Assembly (NCBI GenBank): GCA_029288315.1
Contig: JARIHL010000014.1
Span: 1 to 44,868, forward strand
Length of the DNA stretch: 44,868 bases
From: Candidatus Saccharimonadota bacterium
GTDB lineage: Bacteria > Patescibacteriota > Saccharimonadia > Saccharimonadales > EFPC-124
Reading direction: 5' to 3'
Shown: piece after piece, positions 4,621 through 44,868 of the stretch
Position numbering within the stretch: the first letter of the stretch is position 1
Layout of the letters: each line of letters starts with the position of its first letter
Notes under the pieces: generated by a model
Seen by the model: only the letters and a program-made list of their open reading frames with translations
Database searches by the model: none
Told to the model about the DNA's origin: nothing
Program-made: the position numbers and the translations under genes

Positions 4621-6612
<1,992 letters not shown>

Positions 6613-6727: not shown

Positions 6728-8623
6728 ATGTTTCGGAAAATAGTTTCCGGCCTGCCCTTTAGTCCAGCTCTAGTTGGGCAGCTAGGCTTTTACGCCAGGA
6801 GACTCAAAAAAGAACAAGCAACGAGACGTCTAGGACTCATTTTTACATCACTTGCACTTGTTGTGCAGTCATTCGCCGTACTCACCCCTCCAGATCAAGC
6901 TCTAGCAAGTAGTGCTTCCGATATTATTCCGGGAGGTGTTTCTTCGGTAAGAGATATTCTATCAATATATGACAGTGGTGCTCAAGGTAAGAACGATTTT
7001 AAGAATCTCATGGAATATTTTGGCGTTACAAGAGCTGAAATAGCAGCCATGAAGGCTGAAAAAACTTGTTCAAAAGATCACACTATCATTAGTTTTGGCC
7101 GTCAACATCTATTTAGTTCTGGAGAGGGTGAACTTACCCATCAAATACCGGCCCAACAAGGTGTATCTATTTTCTATTCGACACCTCTTTACCTGCATGA
7201 TCGCTTTAATGGAGGTTCGTTCTGCACTGAATCTTTTGTTGGTAACTCCGCAAAAATCGGCTGGTTTTCTGTTATGAAAAAGTGTGGTAATTTTCAGATC
7301 AAAAAAGACGTTCGTCGCTTACCAAAAGCTAATTTTTTAAGCGCTAGTTGCAAAACTGTCCAAGGTTTTGCTTACGATGAGAGACAACCCTCTCAGCCCG
7401 TCAAAGTATATCTTTTCTTTGGTGGCCCCCCTGGAAAAGGGAAAGTCTATGGTCCAATAACTGCTGATCAACCCACCCCCCATTCCCCTGCTGGTGCAGG
7501 GCATGGATTTAACTTTACCATTCCGGAACAGTATCAAGCCGATCAACAATCTACTGAAGTCTGGGGGATTATGCAACCACTTTCAGGGTGGGCAGAAGCA
7601 AGTGTTCAAATACCGAATACGGTAATTATTCCTGGCAACTGCTCACCACAAGCCACGCCAATTGTTGAATGCACCAGTCTACTTGTCAACTTGATAGACA
7701 GAACTAAAATTCGCTTCGCTACAACCGCACGAGTGGATAATGGCGCCCATATAGAAGCGTATACCTATACCGTCACTGACTCTCAGGGTAAAATAGTATT
7801 TAATACATCATATAATTCAGACAAAGTATCATTTACAACAAATATACTTACCCTTGGCGAAGGCACATACACCGCAAAGAGTACTATTAAATCAAGCGTT
7901 GCAAGCCTTGATGCCCCACAATGCACCAAATCAGTTACAATCGCAAAAGTAAATCAATGTAAGTTCAATGCCATTCTTAATGCTTCCGATAAAGACTGTC
8001 AACCTTGCCCTCATAATACAACACTGTGGTTAAAAGATGAGAATTGCGTATCTCCTATTACGCAATCAAAGATTGCAAAGAATCTTACGCAAGCCAATAA
8101 AGATGCTGATACTACTTTAGCCAAGCCAGGTGATCGTATTGAATATACGCTTCACACAGCTAATATTGGATTAACGACAACAACTACTAGCGTCGAGGAA
8201 AGCCTGGCTGATGTTTTAGAATATGCTACCTTATTCGAGAATGGTGGCGGATCTATGAACCTAACAAATAAAGTACTGAAATGGGATAAGATTACCCTAC
8301 AACCTGGCCAAGTCGATACAAGACGCATTATTGTGCAAGTCTCAGATAAGATATCTACTACTCCACGTGCGGGCAATAATCCTTCTTCTTATAATTGCAT
8401 TATGACGAATTCATACGGAAACACGACTAACATTAAAGTAGACTGTCCCCCGGAGAAACTAGTTGAAGCTACCATTCAACAACTCCCGTCGACTGGTAGT
8501 GGTGGTAATGTAATATTTGCAGGAGGCCTCTTTATGACAGTTACTTATTTCTATGCCCGAAGCCGACAAATGAATAGAGAAGTACGATTGCTTCGAAAAC
8601 AATTCGATGGTGGTACAGTATAA
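6728..8623 (+). CDS. LPxTG-anchored DUF11 surface protein
   Basis: 631-aa predicted exported protein. A basic N-terminus is followed by a hydrophobic segment (about residues 35-55) ending in an Ala-rich stretch suitable for signal peptidase. A long extracellular part contains several cysteines (about 400 residues with no family I recognise). Around residues 445-580 there is a DUF11-like beta-sandwich (KPGDRIEYTLHTANIG), a fold common in adhesive surface proteins. The C-terminus has LPSTGSGG (~585) followed by a hydrophobic helix and a basic tail, the layout of a sortase substrate, although the tail after the helix is longer than usual. No sortase is in the window. Followed 9 bp later by a membrane protein gene. 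A role in attachment to a host cell is inference. Confidence 0.75.
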   Translation: MFRKIVSGLPFSPALVGQLGFYARRLKKEQATRRLGLIFTSLALVVQSFAVLTPPDQALASSASDIIPGGVSSVRDILSIYDSGAQGKNDFKNLMEYFGVTRAEIAAMKAEKTCSKDHTIISFGRQHLFSSGEGELTHQIPAQQGVSIFYSTPLYLHDRFNGGSFCTESFVGNSAKIGWFSVMKKCGNFQIKKDVRRLPKANFLSASCKTVQGFAYDERQPSQPVKVYLFFGGPPGKGKVYGPITADQPTPHSPAGAGHGFNFTIPEQYQADQQSTEVWGIMQPLSGWAEASVQIPNTVIIPGNCSPQATPIVECTSLLVNLIDRTKIRFATTARVDNGAHIEAYTYTVTDSQGKIVFNTSYNSDKVSFTTNILTLGEGTYTAKSTIKSSVASLDAPQCTKSVTIAKVNQCKFNAILNASDKDCQPCPHNTTLWLKDENCVSPITQSKIAKNLTQANKDADTTLAKPGDRIEYTLHTANIGLTTTTTSVEESLADVLEYATLFENGGGSMNLTNKVLKWDKITLQPGQVDTRRIIVQVSDKISTTPRAGNNPSSYNCIMTNSYGNTTNIKVDCPPEKLVEATIQQLPSTGSGGNVIFAGGLFMTVTYFYARSRQMNREVRLLRKQFDGGTV

Positions 8624-8632
8624 GGAAGTATT

Positions 8633-9205
8633 ATGGCAGAGAGACAAATTGAAAGTCCTGAAAGAAAGGTTCCTTCGCTCGAAAAGACTGCTGGCGAACG
8701 TCTTGCCGAACTAGAGCGTAATCGAGAACATAAAAAAGAGGTTCTGGATAACGACTTGGAGGCTAGCATTGAGCAAGCACACGCAGAGGCGACTGCTGAG
8801 GCTCTTTTCACAAAAGAATATTCAAAAGAGCCTCAGCAGCAGTCTGCGGTTGAACGGGATAAAACGGTTGGTGTGATATCAAAACAAGAACGTGAGCACA
8901 CCTATAAACGTACCCTCAAAGATATTCAAAGCCATTTTAACGGGCCTGAGCGAACATTCAGTAAAATTATACATAATAAACCAATTGAACGCGCTAGCGA
9001 TCTTACGGCTAGCACTATTGCAAGGCCAAATTCAATTCTTTTTGGTAGTATATTTGCATTTTTAGGGGTGTTAGGCGTTTATCTTTACGCTCGCTATATG
9101 GGTTTCGCTTTAACGGGCTTTGAAACTATTGCCGCTTTTATTATTGGCTGGTTAATCGGTATCATTGTTGACTTCTTACGAGTTATCGCTAAGCGTCCTC
9201 GTTAG
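8633..9205 (+). CDS. charged membrane protein, function unknown
   Basis: 190 aa, not assigned to a family. Residues 1-130 are highly charged, rich in Glu/Lys/Arg and predicted largely helical or coiled. The C-terminal third has two hydrophobic helices (about 135-155 and 160-182) ending in RVIAKRPR, giving a hairpin anchored in the membrane with a large soluble domain. It lies 9 bp after the LPxTG protein gene and is probably co-transcribed. Its 3' end overlaps the convergent VirD4-like gene by 17 bp, so transcripts of the two arms of the locus overlap tail to tail. Confidence 0.6.
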   Translation: MAERQIESPERKVPSLEKTAGERLAELERNREHKKEVLDNDLEASIEQAHAEATAEALFTKEYSKEPQQQSAVERDKTVGVISKQEREHTYKRTLKDIQSHFNGPERTFSKIIHNKPIERASDLTASTIARPNSILFGSIFAFLGVLGVYLYARYMGFALTGFETIAAFIIGWLIGIIVDFLRVIAKRPR

Positions 9206-12200
9206 ATTTAGTTGACTTATGATCTGAAGATTTCTCTTCTGTGTGGTGTAGATTACCACGTATATCAATGAATATTTCATCTAGATTTTCTTCCTGTGCT
9301 GGTATTTGTTGCTCTTCAGTTTTTGGCCTTACAATTTTAAGCTCAGTTCCTACGGACTGACTATTTTGCATAATTGCTTGGGATTGCGTTTTTTCAACCT
9401 CTTGTAAAAGTGTGTTACTATCTTCAACACTTGGAGACGCAGCTTGTAGTTGATCAGCGTTCTTTACTTTTATATGATCGCCTACTCCTATGCTTTGAAG
9501 CTTTTCTAAACCAGCGGCAGAAATTGTGTTAATCTTTTTATGTTGCTCTGGGCTTTCAAGTGGCTTAGCTATAGGTTTTTTTGCTTGAACTATATTTCTT
9601 GAACTCGTTTGTATCGAAGAGGTTATAAGGGGAGGCTTCTGAGAAGGAGGGTTAGCAATCTTTTGTTTACGCTTAGCTAACCACTCATCAAGAAAAGAAG
9701 AACCCGTAGTGCTTTTAGGTTGACCAGCCGTTATACTCACGGGAGACTTTACTGATGGTTTCGTAGGTTGCTCATCTGATCTGAGGCGCTTAAATATCTC
9801 TTGCTCAACAGTCTTACGCGGTTGTCCATACTTCGCGGCAGACAGGCGCTTCAGAGCATTGGTAAGTTGTGGATTTGGCTTGCCAAGCGGAGGAATTAAA
9901 GACATGCTAAATGGCGCTGACGGTACATTATTAATCATTACAGAAGCCACTGCTTCAAAATTGGGGAGTTTTGTTAAGTCTTCAGCATCAAAAGTAGGTG
10001 AAAATTTTTTAACCATCAGCTCAGCATCTGTAGTGCCGATGCGTCCAGAAATAATTGTACCGACATTACCGATAATAGCTTCGCGAATTTTATCGTTTAA
10101 TTGCGTCATAAATTGGTTTGCCAGAATCAAACTTAAACGATATTTACGCGCCTCAGATAGAATACCTTCAAAAGAATCTGTCGCAAAATTCTGAAACTCA
10201 TCAACATAAAGGCTGAAATCTTTGCGCTGCTCCTCTGTTAAATCAGCCCTACCCATAGCTGCCGCCTGAAATTTCATAACAAATATCATACCGAGGAGCT
10301 GAGAGTTGAGCTCACCGGTTTTACCTTTACTTAAATTAACTAACAGAATTTTATTATTATCCATAATCTCTCTAAGATTGAAGCCACTTTTTGTTTGACC
10401 TATGATATTGCGCATCATTTCATTCGATAGGAAAGCACCAAATTTACTGACAAACCAACCAAGCACTTCGCTTTTATGATAGTCACTAGTTTGTGCCATT
10501 TCTTTGTTCCAAAAATCCAAAACTGTCTGATCTTTGACGTATTTTAGTTTTGACTTAGCAAAATTATTATCATTAAACACCTGTGGAATATCGATAAATG
10601 AAGCGCCTGCGGGATCACTCATGATAGTCAGTGCTGCATTACGAAACCAATGCTCATAGCGTGGGCCGATAATACCCGTATGCCCAGGATCATAGAGTCG
10701 ATACAACATAGCAATAGCTTCTTGCACGAGAAAGTCTTTTTGTTCTTCAGTCTCAAACTCGAATAAATTTAATCCAATTGGATTCTCCATATCTCCAGGC
10801 GAAAAGTAGATAACGTCCTCTACTCTTTCTTTTGGGACCATACCGAGCAAACGCTCAGCTGAATCTCCATGCGGATCAATAAAAGCAAAACCCCTTCCGT
10901 CAAGCATGTCCTGTAGGGCTAAATTCTCTAATAACCCGGATTTACCTGTACCCGTTTGTCCAATAATGTAACTATGCCTACGTCTATCAACGAGCCCTAG
11001 TCTTATCTCTTTCTTGACTCCTCGATATACATTATATCCGAGCAATAAACCTTCATCTGCCATATGAGTCGGTCCATCGACTTGTTTTGAGGCTTGTCGT
11101 TTAAGCTGTGAAGTGGGGGTATTGCGTTGATCAGGAAAATGAAAAACTGTAGCTAATTCAACACTATTTAATATATTTTGCCTAATCTCTGGTGGGAAAA
11201 AACGAAATATAAAAGAAGTTATGAAGCTTTCTACATTTTTTGCAAGGGTAAATTTAAAGCCATTTTTGCCCGGCGAGTCAAACAACGAAAAAGCAGCGAC
11301 AAGATTTTTTAAAATTATTTGAGACCGCGTTGCCGTATTGGACGAGGCAACTACCCTAATAAGCACTTCATAGCCAGGATGTCTTGTCTTCTCTTCTAGT
11401 GCGTCAATTGTTGCCTGTTCTAATGTGCTTAGTTGTCTATCCTCAAGTTTTGCTTCTTTTGGTGTCGGGGGTTTCCAAAGTGCTTCGCCTAATTCTTTTG
11501 CGGATAATAGGCCATTCATGCCACTTGGAAGTCCTTTTTCTTTTCTAATTTTTGCAGCTTGAGTTAATGAAGTTTTTGACCAACTTTCACGAGCTGGCCG
11601 CAATAATATTTGAATAGCCGCTCCATCACCATCAGTGACAACTGCAAATGCATTAAGTATTGCCTGCATAGCGTCGCGTTTTGTTTCTTCAAAAGTTGCG
11701 ATCGGATAAACAAAGTCCTTCTTCAGAGTTAATTCACCACCAATCGTACCGCTAATTTTGCCCATCTCACTAAAAATATTGTGCTCTTCGTGCTCTTCAA
11801 GCCGTGCGGCAGGATAAGCAGCTACCACTGCTTGTTTTACTACATCCAAAAGGACAAGTGGTACAACTACGTAGTAATGAATTAGTCCCTTAGTTGCTAC
11901 GATCTCAAACGCAATATGACGTTGGCCATACAGTCGGCTTTTAAAGCCTTTCGTAGCAGTACTAGAAATAATATTATACATTATCTGAGATTGTGAGATT
12001 GTCTCTTCAGTCACATCTCGAACATCACGACCCCCTACTTCAATATCATCACTTGAAGGAGGTAAATGTATTAATAGTGGCACCATTTTAAGGCCACGCT
12101 CATAATTCTTTGCTTCGCGGAGGACCTTACGATACTGCCAATAAGCAAGGTAGCCAAATAGCGAGAGCAATACTATTCCTATAAAGAAGCCAATTAAAAA

Positions 12201-12209
12201 CCCCGCCAT
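9189..12209 (-). CDS. VirD4/TraG-like membrane ATPase (T4SS coupling-protein type)
   Basis: 1006-aa ATPase of the HerA/VirD4/TraG class. An N-terminal transmembrane helix (about residues 3-24) is followed by a ~370-residue domain of unknown function. The P-loop IIGQTGTGKS lies around residue 420, next to FIDPHGDSAE, and Walker B SLYVDEFQNF around 668 with the downstream ILANQF sensor segment. This is the architecture of CPR conjugation/secretion ATPases that energise type IV secretion-like machines. Residues ~760-1006 are low-complexity, rich in Pro/Ser/Gln/Lys, probably a disordered tail. The gene starts 8 bp after a small Pro-rich partner gene on the same strand. A DNA or protein substrate cannot be deduced from the sequence. 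Confidence 0.85.
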   Translation of the reverse strand: MAGFLIGFFIGIVLLSLFGYLAYWQYRKVLREAKNYERGLKMVPLLIHLPPSSDDIEVGGRDVRDVTEETISQSQIMYNIISSTATKGFKSRLYGQRHIAFEIVATKGLIHYYVVVPLVLLDVVKQAVVAAYPAARLEEHEEHNIFSEMGKISGTIGGELTLKKDFVYPIATFEETKRDAMQAILNAFAVVTDGDGAAIQILLRPARESWSKTSLTQAAKIRKEKGLPSGMNGLLSAKELGEALWKPPTPKEAKLEDRQLSTLEQATIDALEEKTRHPGYEVLIRVVASSNTATRSQIILKNLVAAFSLFDSPGKNGFKFTLAKNVESFITSFIFRFFPPEIRQNILNSVELATVFHFPDQRNTPTSQLKRQASKQVDGPTHMADEGLLLGYNVYRGVKKEIRLGLVDRRRHSYIIGQTGTGKSGLLENLALQDMLDGRGFAFIDPHGDSAERLLGMVPKERVEDVIYFSPGDMENPIGLNLFEFETEEQKDFLVQEAIAMLYRLYDPGHTGIIGPRYEHWFRNAALTIMSDPAGASFIDIPQVFNDNNFAKSKLKYVKDQTVLDFWNKEMAQTSDYHKSEVLGWFVSKFGAFLSNEMMRNIIGQTKSGFNLREIMDNNKILLVNLSKGKTGELNSQLLGMIFVMKFQAAAMGRADLTEEQRKDFSLYVDEFQNFATDSFEGILSEARKYRLSLILANQFMTQLNDKIREAIIGNVGTIISGRIGTTDAELMVKKFSPTFDAEDLTKLPNFEAVASVMINNVPSAPFSMSLIPPLGKPNPQLTNALKRLSAAKYGQPRKTVEQEIFKRLRSDEQPTKPSVKSPVSITAGQPKSTTGSSFLDEWLAKRKQKIANPPSQKPPLITSSIQTSSRNIVQAKKPIAKPLESPEQHKKINTISAAGLEKLQSIGVGDHIKVKNADQLQAASPSVEDSNTLLQEVEKTQSQAIMQNSQSVGTELKIVRPKTEEQQIPAQEENLDEIFIDIRGNLHHTEEKSSDHKSTKSNEDA

Positions 12210-12217
12210 ATATCTTT

Positions 12218-12643
12218 CTATTTATTTAATTTAATATCTTTGCCGTACCGTTTCTTAATATAATCAGCCTGTAGTTTGCTAACTTCGTCTTCTTGTCTAT
12301 AGGGGTCTGTTCGTGTTTCTCGAACAATACGCTTCGCCTTATCCACCCATTCACGCTCAATAAGGTCTTCGTCAGAAGCTGAGAGTGGATTATCGTCCAT
12401 CAAAGTTTGCGCAACCGGTGTATTGTCATCTTGGAGGGAGGGTGTAAGGACCGGGATCACAGGTACAGTCGGAACTACAGCAGGTTCTGCTGGTGGCATA
12501 TGTTGTTGAACTTCATTCCGTTCACCATTAGTTGGCTGTTCATCTCGTTCAGGGGAAGGATGAGCTTCGATAGGCTGAGGCGTTTCTGGTCGATAGCCAC
12601 CCATCTCTGGAGAAGGACTGGGCATTGGTAACTTAGGTTCCAT
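12218..12643 (-). CDS. Pro-rich small protein upstream of the VirD4-like ATPase
   Basis: 141 aa with no recognised domain. The first ~95 residues are rich in Pro, Glu and Gln (low complexity, probably disordered). The last ~45 form a charged, potentially helical module (EREWVDKAKRIVRETR) ending in a basic tail. No membrane segment or signal peptide is visible, so it is likely cytoplasmic. The gap to the ATPase gene is 8 bp, which argues for a shared transcript and perhaps an accessory role to it. No Shine-Dalgarno precedes the ATG. An extended -10 box lies 10 nt upstream, suggesting a nearly leaderless mRNA. Confidence 0.65.
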   Translation of the reverse strand: MEPKLPMPSPSPEMGGYRPETPQPIEAHPSPERDEQPTNGERNEVQQHMPPAEPAVVPTVPVIPVLTPSLQDDNTPVAQTLMDDNPLSASDEDLIEREWVDKAKRIVRETRTDPYRQEDEVSKLQADYIKKRYGKDIKLNK

Positions 12644-12653
12644 AACTAGCTAA

Positions 12654-12662
12654 ATTGTAACA
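12654..12662 (-). promoter_or_regulatory. extended -10 promoter for the VirD4-like operon
   Basis: Minus strand TGtTACAAT ends 10 nt before the ATG at 12643, so the transcript would have a leader of only a few nucleotides. No good -35 is seen, as expected for extended -10 promoters. Confidence 0.5.
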
Positions 12663-12691
12663 TAGAGATCATAAGCGTTTATAGGTGTTTA

Positions 12692-13066
12692 CTAGAATCG
12701 TCGAGTCACATAAAAACAAGCGATACTAATTAATAGAAAAACAAGCACAAAATCTTTCAAGTCTAACTGACCAATTGAATTAAGTGCCAGAAGAAATACT
12801 GGGCCAAGCGCGGTTATACTGGTCAAATAATAAAGCTTTTGCTTTTTTACATCTCGTTTCAATCCAATTAAATGTAGGGAAAATAGAGTCAGTGACAAGG
12901 TTATGGTATAAAGCATACTCGCAAAAAAAAGATACATCAGAACAAAAATCAAAAGCGTTCCCGCTGGGCCTACCTCCAAAGGACTTGTCAAATTAAGCAT
13001 GGTGATTAACATAGCCAAAGAGAAGAATGGCAAAAAATAGATCCAATATCTTTTAAAACGCTGCAT
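12692..13066 (-). CDS. four-helix membrane protein, unknown
   Basis: 124 aa, almost entirely hydrophobic with about four predicted transmembrane helices and a short basic loop (GLKRDVKKQK) after the second. No family recognised. The ATG is preceded by GAGGTGA, a usable ribosome-binding site. Upstream on the same strand lies a ~310-nt region with a consensus promoter and an ornate structured RNA ending in a terminator-like hairpin, so expression could depend on read-through of that element. The gap to the next gene (12643) is 48 bp and contains that gene's own promoter. Confidence 0.6.
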   Translation of the reverse strand: MQRFKRYWIYFLPFFSLAMLITMLNLTSPLEVGPAGTLLIFVLMYLFFASMLYTITLSLTLFSLHLIGLKRDVKKQKLYYLTSITALGPVFLLALNSIGQLDLKDFVLVFLLISIACFYVTRRF

Positions 13067-14111: not shown

Positions 14112-14149
14112 AAAAAAGACCCAACCAACATATCGGATGAGTCTTTTTT
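14112..14149. terminator. bidirectional terminator of tmRNA
   Basis: AAAAAAGAC (14112-14120) pairs with GTCTTTTTT (14141-14149). Read on minus it follows the tmRNA CCA end immediately and ends in a T-run, with the plus-strand sRNA converging from the other side. Confidence 0.65.
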
Positions 14150-14517
14150 GGTGGAGCTGCGGGGTATTGCACCCCGGTCCGCTTGGTTACAAAATTACCA
14201 TCTACAAGCATAGTGTATTTTAAAAACCACATTGCCTAAAAAATACACAAAAAACAGAATGCGGCTTTGCGGAAAAAAATCAATCTACTTGTTCCGCAGG
14301 CAAGCAAATCTAACCGGATATATAAGATCGAACTTCTCTATCCGATATCAAGAGTCGATCGTTACTGATTAAACAGCAACCGATGCGAATGCTGGAGCAC
14401 GAAAAGTGTCAGCAATGCGAGCAAAAATATTCTTTGCAGTTATAAAACACGTTTACGTCGTGCATTCGACTTGCAAGTAATTTGTAAAAGTCCAAACGTC
14501 GAAGCTGTTTCAGCCCC
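14149..14517 (-). ncRNA. ssrA: transfer-messenger RNA
   Basis: 369-nt tmRNA, which rescues stalled ribosomes with SmpB. The 5' end GGGGCTGAAACAGCTTCGACG pairs as acceptor stem with CAGCTCC at the 3' end, followed by A and an encoded CCA. The resume codon GCA is at 14435-14437 after an ATAACT determinant. The tag reads AKNIFARIADTF... ending in APAFASVAV and TAA (14369-14371), 22 residues, longer than the common ~10 and lacking the usual -LAA end. The T-arm CGGGG-TGCAATA-CCCCG has G where the near-universal U55 stands. An extended -10 (TGaTATACT) lies 11 nt upstream. Confidence 0.93.
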
Positions 14518-33876: not shown

Positions 33877-34311
33877 ATGTTAAAACAATCTATCTTACTA
33901 GTGCTCTGCGCTGTTGTAGCCATTACTATACTTTTTCCCTCTTCTATCCTAGCTTGTCAGCCCCATGAAATTGCTGAGTTCAAAGGTACCACGGCCAAGT
34001 GTGTCGCGCAGTGTGCTCCAAATGAAGCATATGTGAGTATCGCTCCGGATGGTGCGCATCATTGTCTTGTCAGACAAAACGCAATTTATACTTGGTTGCT
34101 CTACCTCATTCGTTTTTTGTCAATTAGTGTTGGTATAGCCGTTGTTGGAGGCATTGTGTGGGGTGGTATCATTTACCTAACAGCACGAGATAATACCGCC
34201 CAAACACAAAAATCCATTCATATTATTGGTAATGCGATAGTTGGCTTACTGCTCTATTTGTTAATGTTTGCTATCTTGAATTTTCTTATTCCAGGAGGAA
34301 TTTTAGTATAA
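33877..34311 (+). CDS. VirB2/TrbC-type pilin-like protein
   Basis: 144 aa: a signal peptide (LLVLCAVVAITILFPSSILA), a Cys-containing extracytoplasmic segment, then two transmembrane helices separated by a short loop (VGIAVVGGIVWGGIIYLTARDNTAQTQ ... IIGNAIVGLLLYLLMFAILNFL). This hydrophobic hairpin is the form of T4SS major pilins in CPR genomes. AAGGAA precedes the ATG. No VirB4 or VirB6 lies adjacent; the VirD4-like ATPase is 21 kb away. Confidence 0.7.
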   Translation: MLKQSILLVLCAVVAITILFPSSILACQPHEIAEFKGTTAKCVAQCAPNEAYVSIAPDGAHHCLVRQNAIYTWLLYLIRFLSISVGIAVVGGIVWGGIIYLTARDNTAQTQKSIHIIGNAIVGLLLYLLMFAILNFLIPGGILV

Positions 34312-42176: not shown

Positions 42177-43382
42177 CTATGGACAGTTGTTTGGCTGATA
42201 AAATGATCCGTCAGAAACCTGCATATTTTTGCAAATAGTCTCAGCAGTTTCAACCGTATACTCAGGCAAATCGGTAGCTGAGTCTAGACGAACTCTGGCT
42301 TGGATGCGTCGAAAGACATCACTAGCCCGGCCCGTCGAGTCAATGATAGGCTGAACTTCACTAAAGTTAACAATATTATTTGTACTGCTATTTTTTAACT
42401 CAGCCTTAAAATGCGTTCCTCCATAGATCGGCGTTACTCGTAGATAATAATTGTTATTATTTCCTCGTAAGCCTGGTTCGTTCGGTAACTCAATAGTAGC
42501 CGTGCAGGCATAGGAACCAATCTTGTCATTCAAAGGATCGGTTGGTGGATTGTCTTTACAGCGCACCCCTCGTACGCCCGTTTTCGCTTGATCAAAATTG
42601 TGAGGTAAAGCGTCAACGGTGCTTAGTAGGATAGGCTCATTCTCTCCTGATGCAGCTGCGTTGGTAGAAGCATTTGGTGCTAAGAAAATACTTCTGGTGC
42701 GATCATTAATGTTGCTTCGATTGAAGCTACCGTTTGGAAAACCATAGACTTGTATACGCATATAGGCAGGATATTGTTGATCCGTCCAGCTGTTGCTTGT
42801 ATTTGGGCTGACGACTTGCGGTAAGGTTGTACCAAGTGGATACCGAGCAGGTATACCATCTCCTTCACTGCCTATTGTGTTGCTAATAAGATGCCAAGAA
42901 ATTTTAATTTGATCAAAATCGGCATTATTTTCACTCCTTAAAGGAATGAACTCACTCTTCCCTGCTGAAGAGTTTGACACATAGTCTGGCGAATTAAGAT
43001 TAACACTGAGGCATGTGTAGAATTGGTTAAGTTCGGGATGACCAGTAATACTCCCGTCATTACGAATATCCAAGGCACTTCGGATAGCATTGCTACTAAA
43101 GAGACTATCACAGGCTGAAGAAGTAAGGGCGGTCCTCAGCTCAGTTTTTAATGGATCACCTTGAGGGAGGCTGGAATATTTAAGAATTGCCCGCTTAGCA
43201 TCCTCAATACCTGACTCGGCTGAAGCGAGTGCACTTGCAGTCAGATCATTATCTAACGCCTGACGCTGTTCAACGGCCATAATACGCAAAAAACCAATGG
43301 TAATGACTGAGATAAGCAGCATGAAAAAGATGACGGTAAAAAGTGAGACAAAACCTTCTTCCTTTTTTTGATAATAACGCAT
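42177..43382 (-). CDS. PilX-like minor pilin or large prepilin-operon protein
   Basis: 401 aa. A short basic leader (MRYYQKKEEG) precedes a prepilin-like segment GFVSLFTVIFFMLLISVIT that would be cleaved after Gly by a PilD-type peptidase. The usual Glu at position +5 is replaced by Phe, as in PilX/GspK-like minor pilins. A helical stalk with SALASAESGIEDAKRAI follows and then ~300 residues of beta-rich, Ser/Asn-rich extracellular sequence with cysteines (CDSLF, CKDNPP, CTATIE, CKNMQ). Last gene of the pilin operon, 2 bp after the PilW-like gene. Function in pilus tip assembly or adhesion is inferred. Confidence 0.7.
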   Translation of the reverse strand: MRYYQKKEEGFVSLFTVIFFMLLISVITIGFLRIMAVEQRQALDNDLTASALASAESGIEDAKRAILKYSSLPQGDPLKTELRTALTSSACDSLFSSNAIRSALDIRNDGSITGHPELNQFYTCLSVNLNSPDYVSNSSAGKSEFIPLRSENNADFDQIKISWHLISNTIGSEGDGIPARYPLGTTLPQVVSPNTSNSWTDQQYPAYMRIQVYGFPNGSFNRSNINDRTRSIFLAPNASTNAAASGENEPILLSTVDALPHNFDQAKTGVRGVRCKDNPPTDPLNDKIGSYACTATIELPNEPGLRGNNNNYYLRVTPIYGGTHFKAELKNSSTNNIVNFSEVQPIIDSTGRASDVFRRIQARVRLDSATDLPEYTVETAETICKNMQVSDGSFYQPNNCP

Positions 43383-43384
43383 TT

Positions 43385-44014
43385 TTATTGACCCCCATTT
43401 CTTGTGCTAACTGTGGTAGTGAAGGTGGCAACGGCACAAAAGTCACCGGTAACTCCGCCCTCACATGTCGCGCCAGGGCCTGTGGGTTGATTGCTCCCAG
43501 CAGTAGACAGTCTTATAGTAACATTCACCAGTTTTTGATTGGCGCCCATTATCAGTTGTAAATTTTGCACCCAAATCTGATTACTCGTAAGAGTGATAGC
43601 TTTTTTGGGGTCAACATTTGGATAAGGGCCACCCGCTGGAGCACAAAGCGCCCCAGCAGCATCCTCTACCCGTACTAAGCCGACCGGATTATTATTTGTG
43701 TATTTGTTTACTGTACTATCAGTGATGTTCCATACATAGCTCACACCGCCTAAGCAAGCTCTCCCATTAGAGACTTCATTAAGGTTGACGGCTTCACTAT
43801 TTGTATCTCGTATAAAGCGTGTCATTTCTTCTGCGATACTTCGAGCAGCCTGATTGATATTTTTAACAGCTACGCCTTTGTTGTAATTACCCATAACTTG
43901 AAATATTGCAAATACAATAAACATTAGGACAAAACCAACAAACGCCATTGACAGCAACAACTCTATAAGGGTAAAACCGGCTTGTGGCGGATGTGATCTA
44001 GTGTGCTGGGTCAT
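43385..44014 (-). CDS. PilW/PulJ-like minor pilin
   Basis: 209 aa with a classical type IV prepilin N-terminus: AGFTLIELLLSMAFVGFVL, cleaved between Gly and Phe, Glu at +5. A stalk helix with ARSIAEEMTRFIRD and a beta-rich Thr/Ser-rich head with cysteines follow (GRACLGG, CAPAGG, TCEGGVTGDFC). It overlaps the preceding gene's stop by 17 bp and leads directly into the PilX-like gene. Probable component of the pilus tip complex. Confidence 0.8.
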   Translation of the reverse strand: MTQHTRSHPPQAGFTLIELLLSMAFVGFVLMFIVFAIFQVMGNYNKGVAVKNINQAARSIAEEMTRFIRDTNSEAVNLNEVSNGRACLGGVSYVWNITDSTVNKYTNNNPVGLVRVEDAAGALCAPAGGPYPNVDPKKAITLTSNQIWVQNLQLIMGANQKLVNVTIRLSTAGSNQPTGPGATCEGGVTGDFCAVATFTTTVSTRNGGQ

Positions 44015-44552
44015 ATAATCTAACCACCGTTATCGTTTGTTGCTGCGCTGCGCTGCCGCTGCCTTGCCAACAGGCTCTGAATTGAAGGTCAACATAAGCT
44101 GGAGTAATTGTGCTACTCGAGCGAGTCGCCTCCATCCAGAGACCGGCGCCTGGCGTTGCTGAAGTTGCCGGGGCAAGCGCGGAGTCAAAGTTGGTAATAG
44201 TAACCGTTGAGCCACTTTGAACTAAATAAAATGGTGTCTTTCCAGCACTTACTGCGCAAGTACCACCTGAAGCAGAAAGAGTCGTATTAGCATAGTTAGC
44301 ATTAAACATCCTCAACCATTCTTGCCCGGCAGCGCTCTGGGGATCTTGCAAATAACCATCGCGTAAAAAACGAATAAGTTCAGCCTGCGCATTAATATGT
44401 AAACGAACCTGTGTATGCTCTACGGCAACTTGGGCGGCGCTGAGACCGCGAGCCATCATCGTAATGGCGCCCACGATGACCATACCCAAGATTACAATCG
44501 CCATTAATACTTCAACTAATGTGTCACCACGCTGAGCCGTCTTATGCACCAT
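43998..44552 (-). CDS. PulI/PilV-like minor pilin
   Basis: 184 aa (start at 44552: ATG preceded by GGAG; the track's 44609 start lies in the previous gene). The prepilin motif RGDTLVEVLMAIVILGMVI has Asp at +1 and Glu at +5. Asp at +1 is atypical. A soluble head with two cysteines (TCAVSAG, RACWQG) follows. Overlaps the upstream pilin by 11 bp and the PilW-like gene by 17 bp, so the pilin genes are translationally coupled. Confidence 0.75.
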   Translation of the reverse strand: MVHKTAQRGDTLVEVLMAIVILGMVIVGAITMMARGLSAAQVAVEHTQVRLHINAQAELIRFLRDGYLQDPQSAAGQEWLRMFNANYANTTLSASGGTCAVSAGKTPFYLVQSGSTVTITNFDSALAPATSATPGAGLWMEATRSSSTITPAYVDLQFRACWQGSGSAAQQQTITVVRLYDPAH

Positions 44553-44868
44553 CACAATCTCCAGCGGTAGCATTAAAATCAAGCCCAATGGTCGCCTGGC
44601 CTTGGCCATCCGTGGCAGTTAGTTTAGAAATTACTCCAAAACCGTCTGCACTCTGCAGGCAGAAATTCGCCGACTTGGTCGAAACATTACATCCCGGCGG
44701 ATCAGAAGCGATGCAGGCTATAATATTATTTCTCTTGGCAGAATCATTGGGATTTATTTCATCCGCCAAATTATAGGCAGTTGAAGATTCTTTTAGCGTG
44801 TAGGAAATTATCCGGCTAGACTTTGGGCTTCGGATCATGGCAAATGTGTCTACTGCTACGGCATCGAT
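44542..44868 (-). CDS. pilin-like protein, C-terminal part (cut by window)
   Basis: The frame is open to the window edge (codons for IDAVAVDTFAMIRSPKS lie before the ATG used by the track), so the real start is outside. The visible ~108 residues look like the globular head of a minor pilin (FimT/GspH- or PilE-like) with cysteines (IIACIAS, GCNVS, FCLQS, DCDGA). Position as first visible gene of a prepilin operon supports this. The prepilin N-terminus itself is not seen. Confidence 0.6.
   Translation of the reverse strand: MDAVAVDTFAMIRSPKSSRIISYTLKESSTAYNLADEINPNDSAKRNNIIACIASDPPGCNVSTKSANFCLQSADGFGVISKLTATDGQGQATIGLDFNATAGDCDGA

Follow-up and report, generated by a model that had tools for sequence, protein, structure and literature searches.

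The 44,868-nt stretch of DNA analysed here (the window) is contig JARIHL010000014.1 (C29) of a 1.20-Mb Saccharibacteria assembly in 89 pieces (GCA_029288315.1). Between gyrB (4621-6600, minus strand) and the transfer-messenger RNA gene (tmRNA; 14149-14517, minus strand) it carries a locus of five genes, called A to E below. Genes E, D and C run in one direction and end in a VirD4-type ATPase, while A and B, which encode a predicted surface protein and a membrane protein, run towards them. We give a probability of about 0.5 to the reading that these are two neighbouring units, in which E-D-C would provide an orphan coupling ATPase for a type IV secretion system (T4SS) encoded elsewhere and A-B would constitute a separable adhesin module. 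The features of the locus are the following.

Gene A: 6728-8623, plus strand; 631 amino acids (aa), predicted sortase-type surface protein, from the open reading frame and its orthologs
A, residues 1-62: 6728-6913, plus strand; conserved n-region, first transmembrane segment (TM1)/signal peptide and AxA-like signal-peptidase site
A, LPSTG sortase motif, residues 586-590: 8483-8497, plus strand; LPx[T/A]G in orthologs
Gene B: 8633-9205, plus strand; 190 aa, charged N-terminal domain and two transmembrane (TM) segments
Overlap of B and C: 9189-9205, convergent 3' ends; exactly 17 bp
Gene C: 9189-12209, minus strand; 1006 aa, VirD4-type ATPase
C, Walker B FSLYVDE, residues 665-671: 10197-10217, minus strand; F665, D670 and E671 invariant in 60 sequences
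C, Walker A GQTGTGKS, residues 417-424: 10938-10961, minus strand; G417, T419, G420, G422 and K423 invariant in 60 sequences
Gene D: 12218-12643, minus strand; 141 aa, proline-rich N-terminus
Gene E: 12692-13066, minus strand; 124 aa, predicted membrane protein with four TM segments, opening gene of the E-D-C unit

The five open reading frames lie exactly where an initial annotation of this DNA had placed them, and the 17-bp overlap, the LPSTG motif and a VirD4-type ATPase that is intact are confirmed. Dozens of genomes have orthologs of all five in unchanged order, which argues that A to E are real genes and not chance reading frames. The overlap of the two arms, which that annotation had singled out, is exact in the window and is not a conserved trait of the locus: across relatives the convergent B/C junction has a median gap of +15 bp, and an overlap (4 bp each) occurs in only 3 of 63 measured loci. 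It is therefore taken as incidental, and a functional role for it is rejected. Promoter-like sites (30 against 18 expected) and terminator-like sites (10 against 6.5) are absent from the B/C junction.

Scanning named genomes with C, in a search that lists close relatives only, yielded 75 loci, the majority under the title Saccharibacteria. Nearly all that are sufficiently long read E>D>C> <B<A gyrB>gyrA>; comM, infC and rplT lie on the opposite flank. The remaining orders of Saccharimonadia typically have the unit E-pheS-pheT-L,D-transpeptidase-D-C. There A-B comes after C in inverted orientation or, in families f16, f20 and f22, in the direction of C and directly behind it. In three loci of this last layout that were measured, the gap from C to A is 33-49 bp and A and B overlap by 4-14 bp. 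The genes that separate E from D in these orders were considered as T4SS genes and rejected, the three being pheS, pheT and the L,D-transpeptidase gene. Across Saccharimonadia the five genes are syntenic, in these 75 loci as in the other orders; a lack of synteny in relatives, which would have refuted the initial reading, is not what is seen. As a separate observation, PheT at two loci (L106:12891-15650 and L111:10168-12933) bears an NlpC/P60 peptidase-like insert before or in its B5 region, which is absent in L107 and looks degenerate in L113.

The ATPase C and the E-D-C unit

The product of C comprises an N-terminal TM segment, an N-domain of about 350 aa, a motor domain of the VirD4/TrwB type and a disordered C-terminal tail; a hydrophobic segment within the first 80 residues, the predicted membrane anchor, is present in 91 of 91 orthologs. 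The motor domain passes the PF12696 cut-off (26.3 bits against 22), and a profile built from 60 sequences finds TrwB (1.4e-8) and DotL (1.5e-6) in the PDB. The AlphaFold2 model (pLDDT 80, with a low-confidence tail) reaches a target-normalised TM-score of up to 0.66 against the TrwB motor, the highest among the matches listed. It also aligns along its full length with TrwK/VirB4 (E 1.6e-15), though with a low TM-score, and it matches HerA as well. By location only, helices 488-617 of the model sit between Walker A and Walker B. On this sequence evidence C is a membrane-anchored ATPase of the VirD4/VirB4 superfamily, probably hexameric, and the initial assignment of a 1006-aa VirD4/TraG ATPase is borne out by the PF12696 score and by Walker motifs invariant in 60 orthologs. 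The idea that C stands in for FtsK was rejected, as the FtsK_SpoIIIE domain PF01580 has no match in C and the genome encodes a dedicated FtsK on contig C73. In families f17, f19 and f21, C carries a long C-terminal extension that brings it to as much as 1962 aa (L106:5014-10902, L107, L110, L109, L124); no Pfam family was recognised in the extension of L106.

Two small genes accompany C. D combines a proline-rich, disordered N-terminus with a conserved C-terminal motif of about 50 aa (IEKEWVxKAKxIVxxTKxDPYxQE..LQxDYLKKRYGK) and lies immediately upstream of C (median gap 17 bp, n=91), while 65 of 80 orthologs of E are predicted to have four TM segments; the proline-rich partner and tetra-helix membrane protein first described at this locus are recovered among relatives. 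Searches of Pfam, NCBIfam, PADLOC and PHROGs gave nothing informative for either. Counting as orthologs those C proteins with at least 45% identity over the aligned part, C occurs in 115 of 117 Saccharimonadia genomes, and the two exceptions (G088 and G111) match only at the weaker level of a paralog. At 20 extra loci from genomes in which B is missing or unlinked, C adjoins gyrB or the gyrB operon every time. E is found at all of them except L174 (a pheST layout whose fetched stretch starts inside pheT), and D is recognised at all except L173. E-D-C-gyrB-gyrA persists where A-B is missing, and the sister classes keep D-C, several of their loci holding E...D-C-gyrB-gyrA without A-B. E-D-C is an ancient, nearly universal three-gene unit in Saccharimonadia.

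Relatives of C extend across the phylum, with a match in 191 of 192 genomes. Most Saccharimonadia genomes carry a second VirD4-like relative, Cb, which is 35-40% identical to C and lies on contig C62 in the window genome. Such a number, about two in each genome, is in line with the 5,713 VirD4 homologs reported in 2,918 genomes, most of them chromosomal and far from virB4 (PMC12102498). At four loci of other classes (L147, L148, L153 and L154), a pair of neighbouring VirD4-like genes is read in one direction, and in a tree the first groups with C (88% SH-aLRT; 100% for the wider set with C) and the second with Cb (98%). A gene of the sigma-region-4/HARE-HTH type separates the C-type and Cb-type genes in two of these four tandem loci and adjoins Cb in the window genome too. 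We also observed that a protein of 166-181 aa is encoded between the two genes at these loci, and that in the window genome (L092, G000:C62) Cb lies near ftsQ-, ftsW- and ftsI-like genes, as judged by eye, besides the sigma-region-4/HARE-HTH gene.

Among the plasmid relatives of C that are nearest to it outside the phylum, two were inspected, and both lie within conjugation-type operons: in an Embleya plasmid the neighbours encode PrgI, an ATP-binding protein and a replication-relaxation protein, and in a Bacillus plasmid replication-relaxation and conjugal transfer proteins. MOB-suite calls most plasmids with relatives of C non-mobilizable. Bacillus phages of the SPO1 type encode a more distant relative (22-24% identity; 23% for SPO1 gp27.4), and residues 73-815 of C match PHROG 5156 at 2.2e-88.

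The surface pair A-B

Protein A consists, in order, of a conserved cytosolic n-region and TM1, a tandem Ig/FnIII-like ectodomain, the LPSTG motif, a second TM segment (TM2) and a conserved cytosolic tail of 22 aa. The n-region follows the pattern MFRKIVS..FSPALVGQLGFYA.RL.KE..TRR, and a putative, AxA-like signal-peptidase cleavage was placed by eye between ALA and SS. Conservation, taken as the mean majority identity over 61 A proteins, is higher in the n-region (74%) than in TM1 (64%) and the ectodomain (16-54%), whose middle is hypervariable (16% identity, columns 40% filled). It reaches 84% in the LPxTG columns, against 55% for the adjoining TM2, and 59% in the tail. Lengths range from about 255 to 848 aa among the first loci examined, and LPx[T/A]G is retained in 67 of 75 orthologs. 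The AlphaFold2 model (pLDDT 85) shows a stack of Ig/FnIII-like domains flanked by two long helices, and a fold search returned generic Ig/FnIII stacks and nothing more specific. As modelled, A is a surface protein of tandem Ig folds whose cytosolic ends are conserved and whose middle is hypervariable.

The first description of A as an LPxTG DUF11 adhesin holds in part. The LPSTG motif is there and widely kept, and A has the layout of an LPXTG surface protein (signal peptide, LPxTG, TM segment, basic tail); the window protein itself scores below the curated cut-offs of both DUF11 (PF01345; 18.3 bits against 24.6) and LPXTG_anchor (TIGR01167; 12.8 bits against 15.9). Across the family, DUF11 is matched by 52 of 61 members at E <= 0.01 (best 1.1e-19), DUF7927 by 56 and PKD families by 13 and 19. 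No Pfam family for a PrgB or antigen I/II-type adhesin domain is among the matches of the 61.

Ahead of its two TM segments, protein B has a charged, presumably cytosolic N-terminal domain with the conserved motif R.FSK.IH.P.VEK. Neither Pfam, NCBIfam, PADLOC and PHROGs nor the PDB holds an informative match to B. It is present as a single copy in 65 of the 117 sampled Saccharimonadia genomes, missing from the other 52, and found in none of about 260 genomes from outside the class in a sample of the phylum. In 61 of the 65 B-bearing genomes, by manual comparison, B and C are on one contig, about 3 kb or less apart. In three (G041, G033 and G018) they are on separate contigs, consistent with assembly breaks, and in one (G067) A and B stand together on another contig (C12) while C directly abuts gyrB.

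Of the loci that include both C and gyrB, 66 carry the A-B pair, 10 lack both of its genes and 1 has a degenerate A alone. The slot beside C is filled in the sister classes by large charged proteins (L136:6199-9711, L137:5062-7520, L141:344-1941, L143:7089-8864). Mapped on the C tree (105 rows), the presence of A-B requires a minimum of 7 changes, one of them at the split from the sister classes, which suggests about one gain and six losses, although the change count alone cannot separate gain from loss; the orientation of A-B changed once on the same tree, that is, by a single inversion. Since A and B are kept or lost jointly while E-D-C stays, they are one heritable unit and E-D-C is another, and A-B is a class-specific two-gene surface module separable from E-D-C.

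Two units in one neighbourhood

Secretion and sortase genes elsewhere in the genome, which the initial annotation's proposal called for, do exist: three sortases score over the cut-off, and there are VirB4 (twice), pilin, PrgI, M23 and lysozyme genes. The VirB4 genes (C13 and C87) and the pilin arrays (C32 and C13) are unlinked to the five-gene locus. Contig C87 encodes VirB4, a 1036-aa M23 protein and a lysozyme-M23 protein, and no VirD4 gene was seen beside this resident T4SS (C87/C32) in the stretch read. A second T4SS cluster on C13 (G000:C13:18000-36000, L091) has pilin, PrgI, VirB4, M23 and a VirD4-like gene of its own, and from its neighbouring sequences is perhaps an integrated mobile element; a replication-relaxation-like gene and a serine recombinase gene follow it. 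In the window itself, 33877-34311 (plus strand) encodes a secreted-looking protein of 144 aa that scores 24.4 bits for T4SS_pilin against a cut-off of 26.6 and is possibly one more VirB2-like pilin, encoded singly and without linkage to the C32 and C13 arrays. At 42177-44609 (minus strand) three consecutive reading frames have, by eye, pilin-like N-terminal methylation signals and are possibly minor type IV pilins. The initial label of a T4SS-like locus was overstated, since the locus holds no VirB channel gene, the nearest are on other contigs, and its genes form two separable units.

In the mechanism that we propose, C would be an orphan type IV coupling protein (T4CP), with D as its proline-rich adaptor and the small polytopic E as its partner in the membrane. 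The three, perhaps together with the paralog Cb, would act as substrate receptor and motor of the resident Patescibacterial T4SS. This coupling role is the most likely function of C and draws independent support from the plasmid relatives in conjugation operons. A would be exported through its extended signal peptide, display the hypervariable Ig-like stack and be anchored by sortase at LPxTG, with B as a dedicated two-TM membrane partner that probably acts on the conserved cytosolic ends of A; most likely A would mediate contact with a host or partner cell. Cooperation between A-B and E-D-C is a less likely addition, which fits the reported absence of PrgB-type adhesins from Patescibacteria (PMC12102498).

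Several findings weigh against this reading. The window has no cluster of VirB4, VirB3/PrgI, VirB6 and VirB1-like hydrolase genes between gyrB and comM, the nearest being on other contigs, and the architecture of C is not exclusive to T4SS, given its distant relatives in SPO1-type phages. In S. epibionticum a t4cp homologue far from virB4 (of C or Cb type) is reported as non-essential though the T4SS is essential, and among 3,035 genomes T4CP homologs occur in more (2,918) than VirB4 does (2,417; both PMC12102498). On the side of A, LPxTG is gone from 8 of 75 orthologs, several of them shortened, with TM2 and tail still there. A test of covariation with sortase has no power, since 56 of 57 genomes checked encode a sortase whatever the state of A-B or LPxTG. 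Moreover, E-D-C outlives about six losses of A-B, and the position of A-B beside C could be passive, as the surrounding comM, infC, rplT and gyrBA region is conserved and an inversion in place keeps adjacency.

This last point is the core of an alternative that retains an appreciable, if less than even, probability, namely that A-B and C are unrelated core genes held together by the slow rearrangement of small genomes and share no process. The closeness of A-B and C is old but could be passive because the flanks are equally conserved, with gyrBA, comM, infC and rplT as syntenic as the locus, and the joint loss of A-B leaves C, D and E untouched. However, A-B has departed from the site in just 1 of the 65 B-bearing genomes, and the narrow C-A gaps of the co-directional orders look operon-like.

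Somewhat unlikely, in our view, is the single contact-dependent apparatus of the initial annotation, in which A-B would be the adhesion arm of E-D-C and bring partner cells close for transfer by the T4SS. It draws on the adjacency of A-B to C in 61 of 65 genomes, with three more split in a manner consistent with assembly breaks, and on an association that outlasted the inversion between the operon-like D-C-A-B and the convergent layouts. The role of adhesin is vacant, as no PrgB-type adhesin was found in Patescibacteria (PMC12102498), and in Gram-positive conjugation systems it is surface adhesins that bring cells together. The persistence of E-D-C after about six losses of A-B and the unlinked A-B of G067 speak for an A-B that is independent of C, and adjacency is weak evidence in a neighbourhood conserved as a whole. 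The support for a joint apparatus is positional only, and the two parts are separable, B being missing from 52 of 117 genomes.

It is unlikely that C is a membrane-tethered DNA translocase of the HerA/FtsK kind, handling the chromosome or incoming DNA in place of T4SS coupling. HerA-like matches in Foldseek and PADLOC, the SPO1 phage homologs, the position beside gyrBA and near comM, and the reported dispensability of the t4cp homologue for epibiotic growth (PMC12102498) would favour such a role. On the other hand, the genome has its own FtsK, the TrwB motor gives the highest target-normalised TM-score among the matches listed, the plasmid relatives sit in conjugation operons, comM does not adjoin the unit in the fetched loci of other orders, and the constant partner of C is D, which is no DNA protein. 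Still less probable is a hetero-complex of the paralogs C and Cb with D and E and with A-B as a tied host-contact adhesin, which, if true, would make C, Cb, D, E and A-B an attachment machine linked to a T4SS and without a described counterpart in monoderm bacteria.

Overall, the locus is real, ancient and under-described, and its parts belong to known kinds. A literature search found no description of the B, D and E families, of the class-specific A-B pair or of the pairing of C with Cb. One orphan VirD4 homolog now has a fixed neighbourhood, the partners D and E and a tandem paralog, and A-B emerges as a class-specific surface pair that has been lost repeatedly as a unit. Both units look like parts of a kit for gripping a host bacterium or passing molecules to it, their joint working being a proposal, and E-D-C and A-B are testable candidates for missing parts of the interface between Saccharibacteria and their hosts.

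Comparison with known systems

Among Ig-domain, sortase-anchored proteins of the DUF11/PKD type, A shares the signal peptide, variable ectodomain, LPxTG, TM segment and basic tail, together with a sortase encoded in the genome. It differs in the strong conservation of its n-region (35 aa) and of its cytosolic tail (22 aa), in its dedicated partner B, and in that some lineages drop the motif yet keep the TM segment and tail.

Surface adhesins are typical of Gram-positive conjugation systems of the MPF-FATA class (PMC12102498), for which pCF10 and the Embleya and Bacillus plasmid operons serve as comparison; there, homologs of C stand beside genes for PrgI and an ATP-binding protein or for conjugal transfer, and beside replication-relaxation genes. 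The window locus, unlike these, is without PrgI, VirB4 or a relaxase, its A is without a recognised PrgB domain, and it belongs to the core chromosome and not to a mobile element.

The T4SS of S. epibionticum (SEML1_0006-0019) is essential for epibiotic growth and has no recognisable coupling protein (PMC10633639), and essential peptidase and lysozyme genes lie directly downstream of its virB4 (PMC12102498). The C87/C32 set of the window genome resembles it in its VirB4, its M23 and lysozyme genes, its pilin array and the lack of a coupling protein seen beside them, whereas E-D-C and A-B, unlike members of that cluster, are on a separate contig and outside it.

Finally, C resembles the VirD4 coupling proteins TrwB of R388, DotL and Cag-beta in its P-loop motor fold, its N-terminal membrane anchor and, possibly, the helices that the model places between the two Walker motifs, and it resembles the orphan VirD4 homologs of Patescibacteria (PMC12102498) in being chromosomal and far from virB4. 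What sets it apart from both is the N-domain of about 350 aa, the overall alignment to VirB4/TrwK, the fixed partners D and E, a class-wide site at gyrBA and the surface module alongside.

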